Position numbers and translations under genes: made by a program. The notes beneath the pieces were generated by a model. The model made no database searches. It had not been told where the DNA came from and saw only the letters and a program-made list of their open reading frames with translations. A stretch of DNA of 64,000 bases from Candidatus Gastranaerophilales bacterium (GTDB lineage: Bacteria > Cyanobacteriota > Vampirovibrionia > Gastranaerophilales > Gastranaerophilaceae), in NCBI GenBank assembly GCA_944324345.1, contig CALUVT010000004.1, positions 180,246-244,245 on the forward strand, written 5' to 3'. The stretch's first letter is position 1, and every line of letters begins with the position of its first letter. Positions 53,635-64,000 of this stretch are shown here, in pieces.

Positions 53635-54687
53635 CTATTTTTTCAGCACCTCTAAGAGAGTATAATCATGTGCACCAATATTTTCATATTTTTTATGAAC
53701 TTTTAGACCCGCTTCATTTATCAATTCAAGCATTTGTTTCTCTGTATACATTTTACTCTTTCCATTTGCCATACACGTAAAATAAAGTGAAATATGAGCA
53801 AGTGAATAAGCAGCTCCCTCAAAAACTTGTTTATCCATGAAAGGTTCAAGAATAAAGATTTTTGTTCCTTCATCCATAGCATTTTTCACGTTATTTAAGA
53901 TAGAAACAATCTGTTCCTTTGAAAAACAATCCAAAAATTGGCTCATAAAAACAGCTCCCGATATCTTTGGCAAAGATGTTGTTAAAACGTTTAGCCCATG
54001 GAATTTTAACCTGCTGTTTTTAAGATGTTTTTTAGCTTCTTCAATGTTTTCAGGCAAGTCTATCATATTAACAATACAATTTTTATCAAATTCAAGACAG
54101 GCAAGTTCAAACTTACCTGTATTACCGCCTATATCAAAAATTTGGTTTATCTTATTTTCAAAAATAATTTTTAAAACTTCTTCAAAGCATCTGTCAGAAT
54201 AAAAATGGTCAAACTCAAACCAGCTTTTTTTCATGTCGTCAGGCAAAAACTGTAAAGCATTATAAATCGTTTCATAGTTCCCGATAAACTTTTTACATCC
54301 GATAGGTTTTGAAGTCTCAAATGAATTTGCAAGCTCGTAAGCTCCAAGATAACAAACATCTTTAACAAAGTTAAAATTCACCCTTGTCATTTCATTATTT
54401 AAAAAAGCTGATGCTACAAGTGTATTCACATATCTATCTTCGGTTTTTACAACCAAACCTGCATAACATGCGACCTCAAGTAAGGTTTCTGCAGTATAAT
54501 CGGATATTTTACAATGTTCAATAATTTCTTGAAGAGTAGAAGGATTTTCTTCCAAAAATTCTAAAATCCCAAACTTTATCATTGCAGAAACTGCCTGAAA
54601 TGTTAAAGGTGCAAATGCAATTTTTTGTGCATCCGTAAGAGCTTTTACCTGTGGGGAGACATGTGTTTTTGTCCTTCTATATTTCAT
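53635..54687 (-). CDS. O-methyltransferase-like enzyme of the APE cluster
   Basis: A 350-residue methyltransferase. N-terminal winged-helix dimerisation domain (about 20-105: ALTDAQKIAFAPLTFQAVSAMIKFGILEFLEENP) followed by the SAM-binding domain with QIFDIGGNTGKFELACL near 187 and VNMIDLPENIEEAKK. This is the acetylserotonin-O-methyltransferase/CrtF-like layout used to methylate aromatic rings. It should modify the aryl head group of the polyene. GAGGA precedes the ATG. Confidence 0.87.
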   Translation of the reverse strand: MKYRRTKTHVSPQVKALTDAQKIAFAPLTFQAVSAMIKFGILEFLEENPSTLQEIIEHCKISDYTAETLLEVACYAGLVVKTEDRYVNTLVASAFLNNEMTRVNFNFVKDVCYLGAYELANSFETSKPIGCKKFIGNYETIYNALQFLPDDMKKSWFEFDHFYSDRCFEEVLKIIFENKINQIFDIGGNTGKFELACLEFDKNCIVNMIDLPENIEEAKKHLKNSRLKFHGLNVLTTSLPKISGAVFMSQFLDCFSKEQIVSILNNVKNAMDEGTKIFILEPFMDKQVFEGAAYSLAHISLYFTCMANGKSKMYTEKQMLELINEAGLKVHKKYENIGAHDYTLLEVLKK

Positions 54688-54734
54688 TTTTTTTGTCCTC
54701 TATGTTTACAAAATTCCAACTGTATATAACTATC

Positions 54735-56897
54735 CTAATCATTATTCACTTCAAAATCATCTTTTTTATCTATCAACATTATACTAAAAAGATAAGAACT
54801 CAAAAGTCCCAATGCCAAAACCGTTCCCAATGAACTTATTAGTTTAAATCCTGCAAACGCCAGCAATGTAAATAAAAATACACTTGTCAAACAAGACATT
54901 AAAACAGCATCCGCAAACTTTTCCGCCCCTGCAAATCTAAATACAGAATAATCTAAGCCAAAACCAATTATCAAAAATATAGCAAGCACATGAAATAGAT
55001 TGATTGAAAATCCAAATAATCCCAACAAACCAATAACAAAAATTACTGCACACAATGAAGGTAATGTAATTACAAGAGCGGATTTATAATCATAAATTTT
55101 TGCCAGCAAAATATACAAAAATCCGAAAATAGGGATTAGTAAACTTAAACAAATTAACCTGTATTTTCTAATCTGTGCAGAAATATCTTTCTGAAAATTA
55201 ACAGCCTTTACCCCATCTATTTCATTCCCGTTATAATTATAAGCAATAATGATAGAGGTATTTTCATCTATTAAAAAATTGTTTTTTAAAAATACAAAGT
55301 CATCACCTAAGGTTAAAAATTGATTTCCATAGCTCTTTTTAATAAGTTTTTGTCGTTGTGCAGGTGGTAAAAATTCCGCATACTCATTCAATTTAACAGT
55401 ATACAAATCTCTCTTTAAATCTCTGTTTTCTTTTTGTCGTTTTTCTGACGGCACATATTTACTTAACGATTGAAAATCAATTCCTTGCTCAGTTAATTTA
55501 TCCGTAATTTTTTCTTCTTTTTGAAGAATATCTTGAATATTATCTCCTTTAACAACAAAAATAGATAAATCCCCGTTTGATTGTACAAGTTCGCCAAACA
55601 ATTTTTCCGCGTTAATCAAAAATTTTGGAGGAACATACATATTTTTTATATTATCATCAAATTTTGTCCGTACCAAACCAAATAATGCGATTACAAAAAC
55701 CGAACAAAGTATAATATTACGCATTTTTTTTGAAATTTTTAATGATTTAAAACTTCTTTTATTTTCAAAATTTTTAAAATTAAACAGCGGTAAAAACAAA
55801 ACTACTATTGAATAAACCGTAACAAGCCCGGTTATCGTAAAGACGGAAATCTGTTTTAATAAAATAAAGTTTGCGAAAAACAAAATTGCAAATGCACTGA
55901 CAGTTGTCAAAAGACTCACAGAAAGACTTTTAAAAATTTCTTTTATAGTATCTTTACCCCTGTAAGACACAAAATAATGCAGAAGATAATCAACGCAAAT
56001 CCCTATTAAAGTCGTTGAAAAAACAAAAGTCAAAATATGAATATCTCTAAAGAATAATGAAGTAACGGCATATCCGGTAAAAATTCCGATGCCAATACTT
56101 ATTGCAATAGGTATTAACGGCAAAAGGGAATTGAAATACCAAAAGACAAGTCCTATAATAAATAATGTCGACAATATACAAATAAAATTAATTTCAAATA
56201 TTGAACGATTACTTGCATAATAAGAATGTACAGGAGCTCCGGTAAGATAAACCCTTACATCATCCGTTGAAAGTTCCTCTGCAATATCTTTTAGCATCCG
56301 TATTTCATCATTAACAACAGTAGGAGAAAGTGCAACATCATCATTTACTGTCAGCATAACGAGACTGTAATATTTACCCTCGTATTCAAAAGGTGTAAAA
56401 TCCGAATTCCCGCCATTTTCCGACAAATTCATAACAAAATCCGTTAAAAACAAAAAAGGATCATCCTCTATTGAACCTATAGGCTGCATTGTAGGATTGT
56501 AAAGGGATTCAAGAGAATTTTCTTCAACCTTTTCATACTGTTTTGAAACAAGCAAATAATGAGTTCTTGAAGATAAGAGATTATCCGAATATTTTTCGTA
56601 AGTATTTAGAATGTTTAAAATATCCGCATTTACAATATGAATTTTGTCTTTATCAACTTTACTGTAAAAAGTTTTTGATATTTCCTCAGATTTTTCGGGC
56701 GAACTACTTTCCACAATTACATTAATTTTCGAAGAAAAACGGGTACTCAAATCAACTAAAACATTTTCACTATCCGAAAACAAAGCTTTTAAAATATTAG
56801 TCTCTGTTCCGGCAGGTCGAAAGGCGGTCAAAAGACCCAAAACCAAAAGTATTAGAATAAAAAATATTCTTAATATATTAATTAATTTGTTTTGCAT
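54735..56897 (-). CDS. RND/MMPL-type exporter of the APE cluster
   Basis: A 720-residue membrane protein with twelve expected helices in two repeats: helix 1 (10-28), periplasmic loop (30-225), a bundle of five (about 230-375, e.g. FICILSTLFIIGLVFWYF, LTFVFSTTLIGICVDYLLHYF), second loop and a second bundle (580-715: VLAIFLIIGFGLDYSVFRFAG). The GIxVDYxLHYF and GFGLDYSVF motifs are typical of the COG4258 exporter in APE clusters. Overlaps the LolA-like gene by 16 bases. Likely moves the polyene lipid out of the inner membrane, passing it to the LolA-like carrier. Confidence 0.9.
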   Translation of the reverse strand: MQNKLINILRIFFILILLVLGLLTAFRPAGTETNILKALFSDSENVLVDLSTRFSSKINVIVESSSPEKSEEISKTFYSKVDKDKIHIVNADILNILNTYEKYSDNLLSSRTHYLLVSKQYEKVEENSLESLYNPTMQPIGSIEDDPFLFLTDFVMNLSENGGNSDFTPFEYEGKYYSLVMLTVNDDVALSPTVVNDEIRMLKDIAEELSTDDVRVYLTGAPVHSYYASNRSIFEINFICILSTLFIIGLVFWYFNSLLPLIPIAISIGIGIFTGYAVTSLFFRDIHILTFVFSTTLIGICVDYLLHYFVSYRGKDTIKEIFKSLSVSLLTTVSAFAILFFANFILLKQISVFTITGLVTVYSIVVLFLPLFNFKNFENKRSFKSLKISKKMRNIILCSVFVIALFGLVRTKFDDNIKNMYVPPKFLINAEKLFGELVQSNGDLSIFVVKGDNIQDILQKEEKITDKLTEQGIDFQSLSKYVPSEKRQKENRDLKRDLYTVKLNEYAEFLPPAQRQKLIKKSYGNQFLTLGDDFVFLKNNFLIDENTSIIIAYNYNGNEIDGVKAVNFQKDISAQIRKYRLICLSLLIPIFGFLYILLAKIYDYKSALVITLPSLCAVIFVIGLLGLFGFSINLFHVLAIFLIIGFGLDYSVFRFAGAEKFADAVLMSCLTSVFLFTLLAFAGFKLISSLGTVLALGLLSSYLFSIMLIDKKDDFEVNND

Positions 56898-57409
56898 TGT
56901 TGAAAAGAGATTTCCGTTGTACCGTTTTTAACAGTTGAGATTTTTATAAAATTTATTTCTGATTTTCCTTTAATTATTATATCATGAAGCTGAGAAGAAA
57001 CTGCTGATTTTGCCTTTGGTTTTAACCCTACAGTCCAAGAATTATTTTCTTTTGAGTAATATAAATTAAAATTGTTGTCCAAATAACCGAAATTTTTATT
57101 TGACACGGCATTTATTATGTCATTTATCTGCCTGTTTTTTGACGAATTATAGGAAACTGTTGATTTGATAGGATACAAAGTTTCAAAAATTGTACCCTTA
57201 TCCTTTATATATCTAAAATTTCCGCCAGATTTTAAAACTGAAGATTCAAGATACCTCTCTTGCGTAAATTTACAAGACACACTATTGAGTTCAGGAATGG
57301 ATTTTGATATATCTTTGCTTGCTGCAGGATAATTAAAAACACCTTCTGAAGCAAAACACAAATTTATACCACATAATATAACCAACAAAAAAAATAAAAA
57401 CTTATTCAT
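56882..57409 (-). CDS. LolA-like periplasmic lipid carrier
   Basis: A 175-residue protein with a signal peptide: MNKFLFFLLVILCGINLCFA, cut likely after the FA. No lipobox. The body has the LolA hallmarks, FTQERYLESSVLKSGGNFRYIKDKG with the hydrophobic cavity residues. In APE systems this partner carries the polyene lipid across the periplasm. The start at 57409 puts the signal peptide at the N-terminus; the gene begins inside the end of the thioesterase gene and overlaps the exporter gene. Confidence 0.87.
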   Translation of the reverse strand: MNKFLFFLLVILCGINLCFASEGVFNYPAASKDISKSIPELNSVSCKFTQERYLESSVLKSGGNFRYIKDKGTIFETLYPIKSTVSYNSSKNRQINDIINAVSNKNFGYLDNNFNLYYSKENNSWTVGLKPKAKSAVSSQLHDIIIKGKSEINFIKISTVKNGTTEISFQQCKTN

Positions 57410-57815
57410 AATTCTCCAATTTTTCAACAAACTTCTTTGGTGCACTATACAAGCTTTCACCTGTTTTCATATCAACACAAATTTGCATACTTTTCGCTTT
57501 AAATATAAGCTCGTTTGATTTTGCATCAAAAATTTTATATTTTATAATCAATGCAGGCTCATACTCAACCAAAGTTGTCACTATTTTTAATTCCTGAGCA
57601 AACGTAGCTGATTTTACAAACTTTAAATCCATTGTCGCCAAAGGATAAGCTATACATTCATTCATCATATCAGAATAGGTATAACCGATTTTGCAAAGCA
57701 TATCACATCTTGATTCTTCCAAATATTTGATATAATTCCCATGCCAGACAACATTCATCGGGTCCAAATCATAAAAAGGAACTTTCATACACATTTCTGT
57801 ACAAATTTTCTTCAT
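57402..57815 (-). CDS. Hot-dog thioesterase (4HBT family) of the APE cluster
   Basis: A 137-residue 4-hydroxybenzoyl-CoA-thioesterase-like enzyme: FYDLDPMNVVWHGNYIKYLEESR contains the catalytic Asp and the N/H region of the family. In APE synthesis it may release the chain or edit starter thioesters. The start MKKICTEMCM (57815) is preceded by TATAAT with a 6-base spacer, but that box overlaps the stop codon of the ligase gene, so it may be chance. A longer form from an upstream start would add 31 residues. Confidence 0.8.
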   Translation of the reverse strand: MKKICTEMCMKVPFYDLDPMNVVWHGNYIKYLEESRCDMLCKIGYTYSDMMNECIAYPLATMDLKFVKSATFAQELKIVTTLVEYEPALIIKYKIFDAKSNELIFKAKSMQICVDMKTGESLYSAPKKFVEKLENYE

Positions 57816-57827
57816 AAGAACATTATA
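57816..57827 (-). promoter_or_regulatory. TATAAT-N6-ATG before the thioesterase gene
   Basis: Minus strand TATAAT (57822-57827), GTTCTT, ATG. The box includes the stop codon region of the preceding gene; a real internal promoter or coincidence cannot be told apart. Confidence 0.35.
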
Positions 57828-59094
57828 AAACAAAAGTGCCGGAAGAAAATATTTTATCTTTACCAAAATATTTAAATTCAACAGAAGTTTCTTTTTTGAC
57901 CAATTCAAGGTTTACAGGCATATCAGGTTTTATAACAGAAGAAAATTTTATTTTCTTTACCTTTTCAGGAACAAAATCTATACTAAAAGTATCTTTGATA
58001 AATTCTTTTGCAAAAAATAATTGAACAACCCCCGGTACAATAGGAAAATCCGTAAAATGACCTTTAAAAAAGTTGCTTTCGTGAGGGAAGATTAAACTAA
58101 ATTCAACACTGTCTGCATCCTTAAAAAAGTCCACAACATAGGGGTATGTTAAATTAGTGTTAAAAATCTCTAAAATTCTTTTACCATCTGTTTTCCCGTT
58201 TTTATTTAAAGGAAAATCAGGTAAAAACCTCCATCTCTTGCAATGTACGACATCTCCATTTAAATCAGGCTTTACACATTTTTGTAAAATTTTTACTAAA
58301 TCAAGTTTACCATGTTTTACCAAGAAGTGACGTCCCTTTTCATTTAAAACAACGGCAGCACAAAGTTTATCTTCTATCTTTAAACAATGAGATTTATCAA
58401 CATATTCGCTCTTGTTTATATAACTTTCTACAACATCGAGAGAAATCCGTTTTTCTTGAATTTTTACAATTCTGTCTTTTCTTCCATTTACTCTAAAACC
58501 ATTTTGGCAAAATTCCAAATCATCATTTAATACAAATTCCGGCTCCAAAAAATATTCGGATTTTACGGTTACACTTTCCCCTTTTCGTTCTACTTTTACA
58601 TTATCAAACGGTCTTAAAAGTTCATTATATGAATGTCTATAAGCGATAACACCTGTTTCACTGCTGCCGTAAACATCTGTTATAGGACATATTTTTTCAA
58701 AATACTTAAAAACCTCGTCGTTGATATTTGCCCCTGCTGTGATAATCATAATAGGTTTTCTTTTGAATTGGAAATTATATTTGGCAAGTTTATCCAAAAA
58801 AGAAGGGGTTGTAACAAAAACATATTTCCCAAAATCTTTTAAATCCTCCGGATAAAAAATTCTCTCAGGGTAAACACTGCACCCGCTAACCTCCGGAAGC
58901 ATTACAGTAAAAGTATAACCAAACATATGCTCATGATTAACTGTAGATACTATTATTGTATCCTTGGAAAGTTTAAAAAAATCAGCCATATCTTTAGCTT
59001 CTTTGTAAAGACACTCATAATTTTTTGTAATAGTTTTAGGCTCACCGGTAGAACCTGATGTATAAAATATTATCGGCTTATTTTTTTGTGTCAT
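57823..59094 (-). CDS. Fused AMP-ligase and hot-dog dehydratase of the APE cluster, ligase N-terminus missing
   Basis: A 423-residue fusion. Residues 1-310 are an AMP-forming ligase: A3 YTSGSTGEPK at 11-20, A5 DVYGSSETG at 140-148, A8 GRKDRIVKI at 204-212 and A10 NKNGKTDGK at 298-306 with catalytic Lys301. Residues 320-423 are an ApeI-like hot-dog domain with FFKGHFTDFPIVPGV at 342-356. Ordinary ligases have 100 to 170 residues before A3; here only 10 precede it, and the upstream DNA codes for the membrane protein at 59078 in another frame. It should activate the aromatic starter (ApeH role) and dehydrate intermediates (ApeI role). Overlaps the COG4648 gene. Confidence 0.88.
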   Translation of the reverse strand: MTQKNKPIIFYTSGSTGEPKTITKNYECLYKEAKDMADFFKLSKDTIIVSTVNHEHMFGYTFTVMLPEVSGCSVYPERIFYPEDLKDFGKYVFVTTPSFLDKLAKYNFQFKRKPIMIITAGANINDEVFKYFEKICPITDVYGSSETGVIAYRHSYNELLRPFDNVKVERKGESVTVKSEYFLEPEFVLNDDLEFCQNGFRVNGRKDRIVKIQEKRISLDVVESYINKSEYVDKSHCLKIEDKLCAAVVLNEKGRHFLVKHGKLDLVKILQKCVKPDLNGDVVHCKRWRFLPDFPLNKNGKTDGKRILEIFNTNLTYPYVVDFFKDADSVEFSLIFPHESNFFKGHFTDFPIVPGVVQLFFAKEFIKDTFSIDFVPEKVKKIKFSSVIKPDMPVNLELVKKETSVEFKYFGKDKIFSSGTFVL

Positions 59095-59491
59095 ATTTTG
59101 CTCTCAATATTATTCTAACAATGTATTCTACCCCAAACATCAATCCTAAAGCAATATATGAAATACAGGCATTATATAAGGCCCAAATTCTATCCGACAT
59201 AAAAACAGTCGCTATTGATATAATCAAATTTATAAATAAGAATACACACCAAACGTAAGTAAGCCTTTTAGTATAAATTTTTGTGAATTCACTTAATTCA
59301 CCTTTCTCCATTTTTTTTGCAAATTTTTGAATAATTGTTTCTTTACAAAACAAAGATGAAAAAAACACGCAAAAGATAAATGAATTAACAATAACAGGAT
59401 AAAATTTCAAAACATATACCTTGCTATAATGAAACAGAAAAACAATAAATAAAGTTCCGGCAAAAGGTAATAACGACTTTAACTTCTTCAT
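59078..59491 (-). CDS. COG4648-type membrane protein of the APE cluster
   Basis: A 137-residue protein with four membrane helices (about 10-25, 32-48, 72-92, 103-125). It matches the small membrane protein (COG4648) regularly found between ACP and ligase genes in APE clusters. Function unknown; perhaps it holds the synthase at the membrane. It starts 1 base after the ACP stop and overlaps the ligase gene at its end. Confidence 0.82.
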   Translation of the reverse strand: MKKLKSLLPFAGTLFIVFLFHYSKVYVLKFYPVIVNSFIFCVFFSSLFCKETIIQKFAKKMEKGELSEFTKIYTKRLTYVWCVFLFINLIISIATVFMSDRIWALYNACISYIALGLMFGVEYIVRIILRAKYDTKK

Positions 59492-59760
59492 TATAACAAC
59501 TCTTCGACAGCATCAACAACATCGCTGATTGTCTTAATCTGCTTAAAATTCTCTGGCGGAATCTTTTTCCCAGCAAATTCCTGCAATTTCACAGCCAAAT
59601 CAACAGCATCTATACTATCAAGTTCCAAATCTTCAAAAAGACTTGCTTCAGGAACAAGTTTTTCCGACTCAATTTCAAAATCATCAGTCAAGATATCTTT
59701 CAATTTATCAAAAATTTGTTCTTTAGTGTACTTTTTATCCACTTTCCCTGTCCTTCGCAA
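59491..59760 (-). CDS. apeF: Acyl carrier protein 1 of the APE cluster
   Basis: An ACP of up to 89 residues with the phosphopantetheine serine in LELDSIDAVDLAVKL (S49). Acidic four-helix fold. The first codon is TTG 59758-59760; a GTG six codons later (59742) after AGGACAGGG is a good alternative. One of two adjacent carriers, as in other APE clusters. Which of them carries the starter is not known, so the letter is tentative. Confidence 0.88.
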   Translation of the reverse strand: MRRTGKVDKKYTKEQIFDKLKDILTDDFEIESEKLVPEASLFEDLELDSIDAVDLAVKLQEFAGKKIPPENFKQIKTISDVVDAVEELL

Positions 59761-59773
59761 ACTTAAAACTTTT

Positions 59774-60031
59774 TTAACTGTTTTGGCAACTTTCCACGTA
59801 ATCCGCTATTGTTTTCACAGAATAAAAATATTTTTTATTCTCATCCTTATTATCACTTAGGTTGATATGGTATTTTTTCTTTAAAGCCATACCCAACTCA
59901 AGGGCATCTATACTATCAAGCCCTAAACCACTGATAAATAAAGGTTCATTGTCGTCAATATCATCGACAGTTATATCCTCTAATTCGAGAGTCTCGATAA
60001 TCAGAGTTTTAATTTCATTTTCCAAGCTCAT
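59774..60031 (-). CDS. apeE: Acyl carrier protein 2 of the APE cluster
   Basis: An 85-residue ACP with S40 in LGLDSIDALELGM as the attachment site. TAGGTGA lies about 8 bases upstream of the ATG. It precedes the other ACP gene by 13 bases. Two carriers with different surface charge suggest a division of labour between starter loading and elongation. Confidence 0.9.
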   Translation of the reverse strand: MSLENEIKTLIIETLELEDITVDDIDDNEPLFISGLGLDSIDALELGMALKKKYHINLSDNKDENKKYFYSVKTIADYVESCQNS

Positions 60032-60064
60032 CTTAATTCACCTATATTAATATATATAACTTAA

Positions 60065-60793
60065 TTAACGAGTAAAGTCAAATTTGATTTTTTCACAAAT
60101 CGCTTTTCTCAACTTTATCTCCGATTGCTCGCTAAATTCAGATAATTTTATAGGTTCAAGCTGGTCAATAGTATACGTAATCACTCTGTCTGATGCATCA
60201 TATATCGGCTTATGTTTTTGCAAAAAAGGATAATCACAAATGATTTTAATAGGAATAATATCCGCTCCTGTTTTAATCTGAAGCATTGCAGCACCTTTGT
60301 GAATTTTCAAATCTTCGCCTTCTACAGTTCTTGTTCCTGAAGGGAAAATAATTATATTATAACCATCTTCCAAAACCTCCCGACAAAGACTTTGAAATTC
60401 TTCTAAATCAATATTATTCGGGATATAAACATTTTTAATTATATTTTTCAGAAATATATTATTTAATAATTCTTTTTTGGCAAGACATAACGAATTGTCG
60501 TAAAAACCTATAAGTATCATAATGTCGATAAATGTCGGATGAGTTGCAACTATAATTTTTCCGCGAACCTGTTTAAAATTTTTCAAATCTATTTTGATGA
60601 GTCCAAGCCACACAAAAAGATGCGTATAAAAATACCAAAGTTTATGTATCAATCTTGAAAAACTTTCACGTTGATTTTCGTTTTTGATAAAAATTCTTCC
60701 AATCGGCAAAATTACTGTCCCCAAAAACAAAGAACAAATTCCAAAAACAGCAAACAACAAAACAACTAAAATCCCTCGAATAAATTTAACCAT
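60065..60793 (-). CDS. PlsC-like acyltransferase of the APE cluster
   Basis: A 242-residue membrane-bound acyltransferase: N-terminal helix (5-30), catalytic H85-x4-D90 (THPTFID), FPSGTRTVEG near 150 for the glycerol-phosphate site. Found in APE clusters beside the ACP genes; it may help build the lipid anchor of the polyene. It starts within the end of the ApeC-like gene, with GGAGAGGA as ribosome-binding site. Confidence 0.87.
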   Translation of the reverse strand: MVKFIRGILVVLLFAVFGICSLFLGTVILPIGRIFIKNENQRESFSRLIHKLWYFYTHLFVWLGLIKIDLKNFKQVRGKIIVATHPTFIDIMILIGFYDNSLCLAKKELLNNIFLKNIIKNVYIPNNIDLEEFQSLCREVLEDGYNIIIFPSGTRTVEGEDLKIHKGAAMLQIKTGADIIPIKIICDYPFLQKHKPIYDASDRVITYTIDQLEPIKLSEFSEQSEIKLRKAICEKIKFDFTR

Positions 60794-61361
60794 TAATCCT
60801 CTCCAAAATGTAAAGAGGACAAACGTATCGCCCGCCTTTCAAAAATTCCGCAAAGCTATTTGACTCTAATTTTTCTATATTAGGAACAATTCTGACACGT
60901 TCCCCTTCTTTTGGATCAATTAAAATAGAAATACTTTCGTATCTGTCAACGGATTCGGCATAACAAAAGAGAGTTTTTTCCTTATTCATAGCAGCATCCA
61001 GCAACCCTAACGAAAAACTGTCATCTCCGGCCGCTATAGAATTATAAGAAGAATGAATTTTGTTTATTAAAGAAAATAAACCGATTGTAGAATTATGAAC
61101 AGAAAAACTAAATCCGGCAGGAGAAATTTCATTTTCTTCATGCTCTTGTTTAATAAGTTTTACCACCCTTTCCAACTCTCCGTATCTCGATGAGTAAGTT
61201 AATTTTATATCATCCCCTTCATAACATTGCAAAATAGTGCTCAAAGCAATTTTTCCGACAGGGGAGAGTTTTCGCCTCATCATCATGGGAATTTGGGACA
61301 AATCAATATTTTCGCCCGCAGAATGCGAAATTTTTTTTATACAAAATTCCAAACTATTCAT
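60786..61361 (-). CDS. apeC: ApeC-like chain-length factor (truncated ketosynthase)
   Basis: A 191-residue ketosynthase-like protein without the active-site cysteine. The segment SVHNSTIGLFSLINKIHSSYNSIAAGDDSFSLGLLDAAM has the ketosynthase core with no catalytic Cys, as in APE chain-length factors, which pair with ApeO and set the chain length. It is the first gene of the left arm; its start is only 14 bases from that of the ApeO-like gene, and both have -10 boxes in those 14 bases. Divergent transcription from one shared site would keep the two subunits in balance. Confidence 0.8.
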   Translation of the reverse strand: MNSLEFCIKKISHSAGENIDLSQIPMMMRRKLSPVGKIALSTILQCYEGDDIKLTYSSRYGELERVVKLIKQEHEENEISPAGFSFSVHNSTIGLFSLINKIHSSYNSIAAGDDSFSLGLLDAAMNKEKTLFCYAESVDRYESISILIDPKEGERVRIVPNIEKLESNSFAEFLKGGRYVCPLYILERING

Positions 61362-61375
61362 GGTAACATATTATC
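61362..61375. promoter_or_regulatory. 14-base divergent leaderless promoter pair between apeC- and apeO-like genes
   Basis: Plus strand: TAACAT 61364-61369, six bases, ATG 61376. Minus strand: TAATAT 61368-61373, GTTACC, ATG 61361. The two -10 boxes overlap by two bases, so polymerase can hardly occupy both at once, and each -35 region must lie inside the other gene. Confidence 0.6.
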
Positions 61376-62449
61376 ATGAATGGGATTTTAATAACAGATG
61401 CAAGTGCAATTTTTGCAGATAGACTGGTTTTTGATGACTCAATAGTTAAAGGTAAGGAATTCTATTTCGGCAAAATAGATAAAGAATTTGAACAAATAGA
61501 AGAGCCTAAATACGATTTACACTGCAATAGAATTTTAAAATATCTCGCGGACAAAATTGATTTAAGCGGATACAAAAAAGATGAAATCGGCATTGTTATA
61601 GGAACAACCAATTCCGGTATAAGTGAATTTGAAACAACGGAAAATAAACATCATGCAGAACTTGGTAATCCTGCCGAATTTTTGAAATGGTATTTAGGTA
61701 CAAAAAACTTTGCAGCAGGCGTTTCAACGGCTTGTACATCAGGGATCAAGGCGTTTTCTACAGCTATAAAACTTCTTGAAAATAACGTATGCAAAGCAGT
61801 AATTGCAGGAGGCGTAGATACAATTGCCCCAATGCCGACTTATGGATTTCACGCATTGGAAGTTTTGTCACACGAAAGAACAAACCCGTTTTCGAAAAAT
61901 AGAAACGGTATAAGTTTAGGAGAAGGCGGAGCTTTATTTTTGGTTACAAAACAACAAAGCAAAAACACTGAGAATATTAAAATTTTAGGCATTGGAGAAA
62001 GCTCAGACGCTTATCATTCCGCTACCCCCGATCCAAAAGGTGAACAAGCCGCAGCCGCAATTCAACAAGCTCTTGATGATGCCGGATTAAAACCGGATGA
62101 TATTGATTACATAAACCTTCATGGCACCGGAACAGTTTCTAATGATTTAATGGAAGCAAATGCTATTTTCAAAATATTCGAAAACAAAGTCCCTGCAAGT
62201 TCAACAAAACCATATACAGGGCATTGCCTCGGTGCAGCTTCCAGTGTAGAATCATACATTTGCTGGGAAATTTTGAAGGGAAAAAGAAACTTGCCCATAC
62301 ATGAATTTGATGGTGAATATGATGAAAGTCTACCTAAAATCAATCTTGTTAACGAAAATACCTTAAGCAAAAATATTAAAATTTGCATGTGCACGTCGTT
62401 TGGTTTTGGAGGGACAAATGCTGTTATAATCCTCGGAAGGGAGTCATAA
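61376..62449 (+). CDS. apeO: Beta-ketoacyl-ACP synthase ApeO-like
   Basis: A 357-residue ketosynthase with the catalytic triad Cys120 (STACTSG), His249 (HGTGT) and His283 (TGHCLGA). It extends the polyene chain with malonyl units in partnership with the ApeC-like factor encoded divergently. First gene of the right arm; the ribosome-binding site is missing, in line with a leaderless start. AAGGGAG for the next gene lies at its 3' end. Confidence 0.93.
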   Translation: MNGILITDASAIFADRLVFDDSIVKGKEFYFGKIDKEFEQIEEPKYDLHCNRILKYLADKIDLSGYKKDEIGIVIGTTNSGISEFETTENKHHAELGNPAEFLKWYLGTKNFAAGVSTACTSGIKAFSTAIKLLENNVCKAVIAGGVDTIAPMPTYGFHALEVLSHERTNPFSKNRNGISLGEGGALFLVTKQQSKNTENIKILGIGESSDAYHSATPDPKGEQAAAAIQQALDDAGLKPDDIDYINLHGTGTVSNDLMEANAIFKIFENKVPASSTKPYTGHCLGAASSVESYICWEILKGKRNLPIHEFDGEYDESLPKINLVNENTLSKNIKICMCTSFGFGGTNAVIILGRES

Positions 62450-62453
62450 CATT

Positions 62454-62918
62454 ATGAATATGAACGATTTACAAAATATTAATCTTGAAAATGTCCTTCC
62501 TCACGACAGGCCTATGATATTAATTGATAATATTTTAGAAATAAATATGACTGAAAAATTTGTCAAAACATCCGTGAAAATTAAAGAAGATAAAATCTTT
62601 TTCGATAAAGAAATAAACGGAATATCTCCGCTTGTCGGGATTGAATTTATGGCACAAACTATCGGTTGTTTTTCCTATTTTAAAAACAATGAACAAATTC
62701 CGGAAATTGGATTTTTGCTTGGCACAAGACTTTATGAAAATAAACTTGAAAAATTTGAAAACGGGAAAACATACACCGTTAGTGCAAAAGAGGTTTATAC
62801 CGATAATGAACTTGTTTCATTTGAGTGTTTAATTTATAATGGTGTAAAAGAAGTGGCAAAAGCAACTGTAAATGCGTTTCAACCTGCTGATGCCAAAGCT
62901 TATTTAAAGGAATTATGA
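62454..62918 (+). CDS. apeP: ApeP-like 3-hydroxyacyl-ACP dehydratase
   Basis: A 154-residue hot-dog protein: LPHDRPMILIDNI near 14-26 and GIEFMAQTIGCF near 60 with the Glu of the active-site helix. It removes water from 3-hydroxyacyl intermediates to form the conjugated double bonds. Four bases separate it from the ApeO-like gene; its stop overlaps the next start (ATGA). Confidence 0.88.
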   Translation: MNMNDLQNINLENVLPHDRPMILIDNILEINMTEKFVKTSVKIKEDKIFFDKEINGISPLVGIEFMAQTIGCFSYFKNNEQIPEIGFLLGTRLYENKLEKFENGKTYTVSAKEVYTDNELVSFECLIYNGVKEVAKATVNAFQPADAKAYLKEL

Positions 62919-63643
62919 TGGGTGATGATAATTTGAAAAGGGTTTTAGTAACAGGATCAAGCAGAGGTATAGGGAAAGAAATAGCATTATACCTTGCAAA
63001 AAATGGTTTTGATATTGATGTTCACTATGTTGGCAATCAAACAAAGGCAATTGAAACTGCCGAAGAAATTAAAGCTCTTGGCAAAAACGCAGAAATTTTA
63101 AAATTTGATATTAAAAATAGAGAAGAATGTTCAAAAGTTCTTTCTGACAGACTTTACTACGGAATTGTCCTTAACGCAGGAATCGCAAAAGATAATGTAT
63201 TCCCAACTCTTACTGATGATGATTGGGATGAAGTTATTGATACTAATTTAACAGGATTTTATAACGTTTTGAAACCGCTTGTAATGCCAATGATTTCAAA
63301 CAGGATAAAGGGAAGAATCATTACAATGTCCTCCGTTGCAGCACTTTCAGGCAATCGCGGACAGGTAAATTATTCCGCATCAAAAGCAGGAATCATCGGA
63401 GCTACAAAATCTCTTGCTCTTGAACTTGCAAAACGAGGAATTACCGTAAACTGTATCGCTCCCGGTGTAATTGACACGGATATGATAAAAGATGTTCCGC
63501 TTGATGAAGTTAAAAAGTTAATCCCGATGCGTAGATTAGGACAAGCAAGGGAAGTTGCAAGTCTTGTAAATTATTTGATGAGTAATGACGCTTCATACAT
63601 TACAGGACAAGTCATTTCTGTTAATGGAGGACTTTATTTATGA
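62915..63643 (+). CDS. apeQ: ApeQ-like 3-ketoacyl-ACP reductase (FabG family)
   Basis: A 242-residue SDR enzyme: cofactor loop TGSSRGIG (13-20), NAG near 88, catalytic Ser near 139-140 and Y153-x3-K157 (YSASK). VNGGLYL closes the chain. It reduces each keto intermediate with NAD(P)H. Translationally coupled to the dehydratase gene (ATGA), and its own stop overlaps the next ATG. Confidence 0.95.
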   Translation: MMGDDNLKRVLVTGSSRGIGKEIALYLAKNGFDIDVHYVGNQTKAIETAEEIKALGKNAEILKFDIKNREECSKVLSDRLYYGIVLNAGIAKDNVFPTLTDDDWDEVIDTNLTGFYNVLKPLVMPMISNRIKGRIITMSSVAALSGNRGQVNYSASKAGIIGATKSLALELAKRGITVNCIAPGVIDTDMIKDVPLDEVKKLIPMRRLGQAREVASLVNYLMSNDASYITGQVISVNGGLYL

Positions 63644-64000
63644 CAAAACGCGTTGTTATTACCGGAATGTCTCTGACAAGTCCTTTGGGAAGTGATATTA
63701 ACACAGCTTTTGAAGGACTTGAAAAACTTGAAAACTGTATTGAATACAATAAAGATTTAGACCAGTATGAAAGACTAAATACTAGGCTCTGTGCCCATGT
63801 AAAAGGATTTGAAATACCATCAAATTACAACAGAAAAGTTACACGCACAATGGGCCTTCTCTCTATTATGGCCGTGAGAACAGCGGAACTTGCACTTGAA
63901 GATGCAGGCCTTTTGGGAGATGAAATAATAACAAACGGTCAAACAGGTGTGAGTTACGGCTCTTCATCAGGCTCTTTGGATGCAATAATAGATTTTTACG
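63640..64000 (+). CDS. apeR: ApeR-like beta-ketoacyl-ACP synthase, partial at right edge
   Basis: The first 120 residues of a ketosynthase: MTKRVVITGMSLTSPLGSD, RKVTRTMGLLSIMAVRTAELAL and GVSYGSSSGSLDAI, which is the normal lead-in to the active-site Cys that lies beyond the window. GGAGG lies 10 bases before the ATG. A second ketosynthase after apeQ is the usual APE order and would serve initiation or a different stage of extension. Confidence 0.9.
   Translation, partial: MTKRVVITGMSLTSPLGSDINTAFEGLEKLENCIEYNKDLDQYERLNTRLCAHVKGFEIPSNYNRKVTRTMGLLSIMAVRTAELALEDAGLLGDEIITNGQTGVSYGSSSGSLDAIIDFY

Follow-up and report, generated by a model that had tools for sequence, protein, structure and literature searches.

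A probable two-way promoter with interlocked extended −10 elements between divergent apeC-like and apeO-like operons in Gastranaerophilaceae

Introduction

Two kinds of promoter arrangement, both already established, are the closest described relatives of the site analysed here: the bidirectional promoters with reciprocal −10 elements studied by Warman, Grainger and colleagues (PMC12825309, PMC10268837), and the leaderless genes preceded by a TANNNT box (PMC3160421). In the former, the −10 elements of the two strands overlap, the divergent starts lie 7–25 bp apart, and the +1 A on one strand provides a T that the opposite promoter uses upstream. At such promoters in E. coli, binding of both orientations at once is sterically excluded; at five such promoters the activity in the basal state was so low that neither direction affected the other, and competition appeared on activation (PMC12825309). 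In the leaderless genes, the first T of the box lies 12 nt before the ATG, there is no ribosome-binding site, and an enrichment of TG is reported for low-GC groups (PMC3160421).

The locus described here shares the geometry of both kinds, with predicted starts on the two strands, and the TG enrichment. It differs from the E. coli bidirectional promoters in that the predicted starts are 15 bp apart, outside the preferred class of 18 bp and the also common 10 and 23 bp, a feature that is not strictly defining. The shared T would be the −15T of an extended −10 element and not a T at −18, and both predicted starts double as start codons, unlike those of the known bidirectional promoters. The TANNNT leaderless genes are known singly, whereas here two are interlocked, each ATG lying inside the promoter of the other. 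The surrounding genes resemble the aryl polyene clusters of E. coli and Xenorhabdus, with ApeC-, ApeO- and ApeP-like proteins, a reductase, a second ketosynthase and acyl carrier proteins (PMC8253772); in E. coli the ape genes share one orientation, apeC lying close to the beginning and apeO among the genes close to the end, whereas in this locus each of the two is the first gene of one of two divergent operons.

Genes and operons of the locus

The locus lies in a stretch of 64,000 nucleotides (the window, which is the whole of the DNA presented) from the 1.76 Mb genome of a gut bacterium, whose close relatives in a public collection are mostly named Candidatus Gastranaerophilales. The two operons are composed as follows.

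61376..62449, + strand: ApeO-like ketosynthase, 357 aa, heading the + operon (Pfam ketoacyl-synt and Ketoacyl-synt_C; best PDB match 6qsp_A)
62454..63999, + strand: downstream genes of the + operon, namely an ApeP-like dehydratase, a FabG-like reductase and a second ketosynthase, cut at the window end (open reading frames, Pfam)
60786..61361, − strand: ApeC-like chain-length factor, 191 aa, heading the − operon (Pfam Ketoacyl-synt_2, E=8e-32; best PDB match 6qsp_B)
53635..60793, − strand: downstream genes of the − operon, namely an acyltransferase, two acyl carrier proteins, a membrane protein, an AMP-ligase-like protein, a thioesterase, a LolA-like protein (so labelled from a reading of the open reading frame alone), an exporter-like protein and a FlxJ-family-like methyltransferase (open reading frames, domain searches)

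The naming of the two operon heads as ApeC-like and ApeO-like in an earlier note on this DNA was borne out. Compared by sequence with the PDB, the two proteins find their best matches in partner chains of one and the same structure (6qsp_A with 6qsp_B, and 7f28_B with 7f28_A), and these entries are ApeO:ApeC complexes. One chain of each entry per protein supports the assignment, as do the Pfam Ketoacyl-synt_2 domain of the one and the N- and C-terminal ketoacyl-synthase domains of the other. In NCBIfam there was no match for ApeC and none above the cut-off for ApeO. The two products are thus related in sequence to the solved ApeO:ApeC complexes, and they may pair in the same way and serve the making of a polyene.

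Small variations are seen within the genus. In one lineage (L011, L012, L037) ApeC has two extra N-terminal codons (MNGINLEF), and its start then resembles that of apeO (MNG/MNE). Two apeO genes (G044:C19:11040-12200 and G172:C12:179230-180390) match in two segments, with open frames of 391 and 395 codons, and seem to have an insertion near residue 195.

Architecture of the intergenic spacer

The ATGs of the divergent genes are exactly 14 bases apart, and positions 61359-61378 of the window read CAT followed by GGTAACATATTATC and ATG. The elements recognized in this region are given below.

61359..61378, no strand: the complete two-way module CATGGTAACATATTATCATG, made up of both start codons and the 14-bp spacer (read directly)
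61362..61375, no strand: the 14-bp spacer GGTAACATATTATC separating the two ATGs (read from the sequence; identity 0.92 among relatives)
61361..61369, + strand: apeO extended −10 element TG-G-TAACAT, hexamer at 61364-61369 (sequence; N6 spacing class; persistence of GnTAnnAT)
61368..61376, − strand: apeC extended −10 element TG-A-TAATAT, hexamer at 61368-61373 (sequence; same N6 spacing class)
61376, + strand: predicted +1 of the apeO operon on the first base of its ATG, leaderless (from the 6-nt distance between hexamer and ATG)
61361, − strand: predicted +1 of the apeC operon on the first base of its ATG, leaderless (from the same 6-nt distance)

The earlier note had described the 14-base separation, a TAnnnT box 6 nt before the ATG on each strand and an overlap of two bases between the boxes, and all three are confirmed; the boxes are TAACAT on + and TAATAT on −, and they share the AT at 61368-61369. 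It had missed that both boxes are extended −10 elements (TGn-TAnnnT). The TG of each straddles the junction with the opposite start codon (CAT/G and C/ATG), so placed that the T of each TGn is paired with the first base of the opposite ATG. Since the usual step from the last hexamer base to +1 is 7 nt, each predicted start coincides with the A of an ATG, and both mRNAs are therefore predicted to be leaderless. The first T of each box lies about 12 nt before the start codon, the box position of TANNNT leaderless genes, on both strands. No ribosome-binding site of the form GGAG, AGGA or GAGG is present in the spacer on either strand. An in-frame TAA occurs 12 nt upstream of each ATG (61364-61366 on +, 61371-61373 on −), so that neither open reading frame can begin further upstream.

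The predicted starts at 61361 and 61376 are separated by 15 bp, with overlapping −10 elements on opposite strands, and fall within the 7–25 bp range of bidirectional promoters. A sigma-70 scan lists no −35 match for either −10 element; being a generic scan that demands such a match, it omits both sites. Together with the conservation and recurrence described below, these sequence features make overlapping divergent promoters at 61362-61375 very probable. A terminator-like call at 61354-61383 was rejected as an artefact, both genes opening with ATGAAT.

Conservation of the spacer among relatives

Across 12 distinct loci in genera g1 and g22 the mean pairwise identity of the spacer is 0.92; in the same comparison, the fourfold-degenerate sites of invariant residues give 0.47 in apeO and 0.39 in apeC. 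The only variable spacer positions are 2, 6 and 13, which correspond to the free base of the two TGn elements and to the fourth base of the + hexamer; the TGn and hexamers of both strands are otherwise invariant in the two genera. Conservation extends beyond the minimal motif to hexamer positions 3 and 4 (TAAyAT and TAATAT), which differ from the usual TATAAT. The module is kept at every same-genus or sister-genus locus examined that has a close ApeO. The TAA that opens both hexamers is also the in-frame stop mentioned above, and the A in its third place does not vary in g1 or g22, contrary to what TATAAT would lead one to expect.

In a wider set, the ApeC start was located in 45 loci from 22 genera; at 8 further loci no ATG start was found for apeC. 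The earlier note expected conserved boxes with their spacing in relatives, and regarded longer, unrelated spacers as the opposite outcome. On balance the outcome favours function, though not uniformly. The spacing holds in g1 and g22; elsewhere the spacers are longer (mostly 18–49 bp) but related: the core, CAT followed by GnTAnnATnnTA, is intact in 30 of the 45 loci (16 genera), and the differences lie on the side of the apeO leader. The full core is missing in the other 15. Most genera retain the GnTAnnAT that adjoins the start codon of ApeC and, from a reading of the listing, the apeO-side extended −10 element is still present in 10 of the 15 core-lacking loci. At loci with an intact core, the apeO ATG stands at a distance of 14, 18, 19, 25, 28–31, 34, 38, 41 or 48, and many of the longer spacers have a purine-rich ribosome-binding site ahead of apeO. 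The pattern of core and distance therefore indicates a constant apeC geometry and a variable apeO leader: apeC would keep its leaderless arrangement, and apeO would be leaderless at a gap of 14 and leadered elsewhere.

These comparisons also bear on whether only one of the two promoters, that of apeC or that of apeO, works, with the other box incidental and the second operon driven from elsewhere. TAnnnT is common in DNA of 33% GC, and six genera with a located start have the full two-way core at no locus examined. The invariance of TGn and hexamers in g1 and g22 nevertheless covers both strands; furthermore, the DNA upstream of each operon is coding sequence of the other, and immediately before the two starts the sigma-70 scan shows no stronger promoter on the required strand. 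Use of one side only is, in our judgement, quite improbable.

Leaderless promoters in the genome

The genome-wide statistics come from two samples, about 446 kb for this genome (G000) and 239 kb for a relative (G056), in which open reading frames were called by a simple procedure. In the window, TGnTAnnnT-N6-ATG occurs 9 times against 3.5 expected. In the 446 kb sample the element precedes the first ATG at N6 spacing in 17 of 276 open reading frames, compared with 0–3 at each of the remaining spacings between 0 and 25, and internal ATGs have almost no TGnTAnnnT at that spacing. The same arrangement is found at 22 of 155 open reading frames in G056, the sampled 239 kb of which has 47% GC. From these counts it follows that a class of leaderless extended −10 promoters exists; it coexists with many genes that have a ribosome-binding site. 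When a −35 element was sought at the leaderless starts, no enriched hexamer was found 30–37 nt upstream, and the enrichment is mainly of T at −19/−18.

The two-way pattern CATGNTANNATNNTANCATG has a single exact match in this genome, the apeC/apeO module, and none in the reversed control. The number of sites is relevant to the proposal that the near-palindrome is mainly the operator of a transcription factor controlling both operons. The 20-mer is indeed nearly palindromic, and spacer positions 5, 9 and 10 are invariant although free in the minimal promoter motif. A single exact site argues against an operator, as do the non-palindromic single leaderless genes that show the same hexamer spacing, and unrelated gene pairs (see below) that repeat the promoter positions only, with the free positions differing. 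We regard an operator as the main function as very unlikely, and a regulon built on the palindrome was ruled out, there being one exact site in the genome.

Recurrence of the module in the family

CATGNTANNATNNTANCATG is present in 46 of 276 genomes of the family, at 70 places (by addition), with no match in the reversed control; 162 genomes from other families of the phylum gave no match. A layout with a 17-bp gap, the leaderless counterpart of the commonest E. coli spacing, was considered as an alternative preferred form and discarded as rare: with the same number of fixed bases it occurs at 4 places in 265 genomes, and the reversed control gave two matches. G056 alone has 17 copies, the most of any genome, and a sample of it contains 10 divergent pairs of open reading frames with TAnnnT-N6-ATG on both sides, of which 7 have a 14-bp gap. 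Copies of G056 (genus g20) that lie between unrelated pairs include L095:14234, L096:1383, L098:6238, L101:14187, L103:10794, L104:2720 and L105:2156; two further genomes of g20, G020 and G083, have 3 and 5 copies. Open reading frames of at least 40 codons lie on both sides in 32 of 36 scored family matches, which include orthologues and are not all independent, against 13 of the 119 viral-contig matches listed.

Could the two boxes at the ape locus have arisen by chance, given a loose motif and AT-rich DNA? By itself TAnnnT is frequent in the genome, but conservation, the spacing peak, recurrence and the reversed controls all speak against chance, and the genome with the most copies is the one with 47% GC in its sampled sequence. 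We find this explanation scarcely credible.

The pairs that flank the module encode clamp-loader-like protein and LD-carboxypeptidase, PlsY-like and HTH proteins, PadR and an MlaE permease, HMGL-like synthase and a TPR protein, IspG-like protein and a phosphoesterase, MgsA-like ATPase and a solute-binding protein, and a recombinase and a small protein. These flanking genes are functionally unrelated, which suggests a general design rather than a device specific to ApeC and ApeO. In g13 and g17 the module stands near the ape genes, between an O-methyltransferase and another protein (L064-L068 and L077-L084, near position 1501). The partner of that O-methyltransferase is about 225 aa long and has the look of a putative phosphopantetheinyl transferase, with no Pfam hit.

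In some copies the palindrome reaches into the first codons, giving identical protein starts (L098:6232-6263; L070 and L085 near 1501; MEL/MEL and MKK/MKK). It is possible that such extended palindromes originate by inverted copying, or that codon 2 is constrained by the opposite promoter. In viral contigs L185, L187, L188, L245 and L250 the double pattern immediately precedes a gene for a protein with the N-terminus MIDV.AFLP.KRKQ.SSGW; the upstream region of this gene may be a recurrent, leaderless-looking phage promoter.

Discussion

The sequence itself, its conservation, the leaderless class in the genome, the recurrence of the module and the spacing preference make it highly probable that the 20 bp at 61359-61378 are a two-way promoter for the housekeeping sigma factor, in which interlocked extended −10 elements produce leaderless mRNAs for two divergent operons. 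On this reading the DNA would be transcribed both ways from the two predicted starts, and the leaderless mRNAs would be translated. Against it speak the missing −35 match, the conservation of hexamer positions 3 and 4 and their departure from TATAAT, and the 15 of 45 relatives that lack the full core, along with the 8 further loci at which apeC showed no ATG start. RNA polymerase with the housekeeping sigma would bind in either of two orientations, melt the shared AT-rich centre and initiate at the ATG belonging to that orientation, giving one leaderless operon mRNA per direction. The shared AT would act as −8A/−7T (hexamer positions 5 and 6) for both directions, each +1 A would pair with the −15T of the other promoter and each −1 C with the other's −14G. 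Two polymerases would be unlikely to fit at the same time.

The length of the spacer can be rationalized from geometry derived from the motif. With 13 bp between the ATGs the two hexamers would make conflicting demands (T and A) on their last bases, and at gaps below 13 bp the TG or TA lands on the CAT of the other start codon; two leaderless extended −10 promoters therefore need a gap of at least 14 bp. The second codon at the modules is often AAn or GAn, and can supply the T's at −19/−18.

The earlier note went further and proposed that mutual exclusion at the site could balance the two subunits, a claim that finds no support in that form. On this account the overlap is a stoichiometry device, in which blocking and near-identical half-sites yield matched rates of ApeC and ApeO synthesis. 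The half-sites are nearly symmetric (TG-G-TAACAT and TG-A-TAATAT) and fully palindromic in L009 and L036, the products match both chains of the same solved complexes, and steric exclusion has been described at bidirectional promoters (PMC12825309). By analogy, steric exclusion is likely at the module too. However, exclusion by itself would lead to outputs that are anticorrelated over time and not to equal ones, and basal competition at the five E. coli promoters was too low to matter (PMC12825309). The use of the same module between functionally unrelated genes, and the symmetry that is broken in most other genera, where apeO is leadered, argue that subunit balance is not the reason for the module. 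A stoichiometry device is accordingly an unlikely description of the overlap. A more general idea, that the 14-bp module of the Gastranaerophilaceae is a built-in allocator which, with room for one polymerase, ties the outputs of two divergent operons, is tentative and seems doubtful, if somewhat less so.

In the literature searched, which left out most subscription journals, there was no fused reciprocal pair of promoters 15 bp apart with embedded start codons, nor a study of leaderless genes in Melainabacteria, and no promoter study for these bacteria was found in it. The two-way promoter reading would add a 15-bp class to the geometries of bidirectional promoters, one enriched in a single family and placed between many unrelated gene pairs. 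Relatives that keep the core with leaders of differing length suggest that leadered and leaderless starts may be interchangeable at one promoter. In the conserved 20-bp unit, the predicted transcription start, the translation start and the opposite promoter would be the same bases, and this raises the testable question of whether two operons are coupled by forced exclusion of polymerase.
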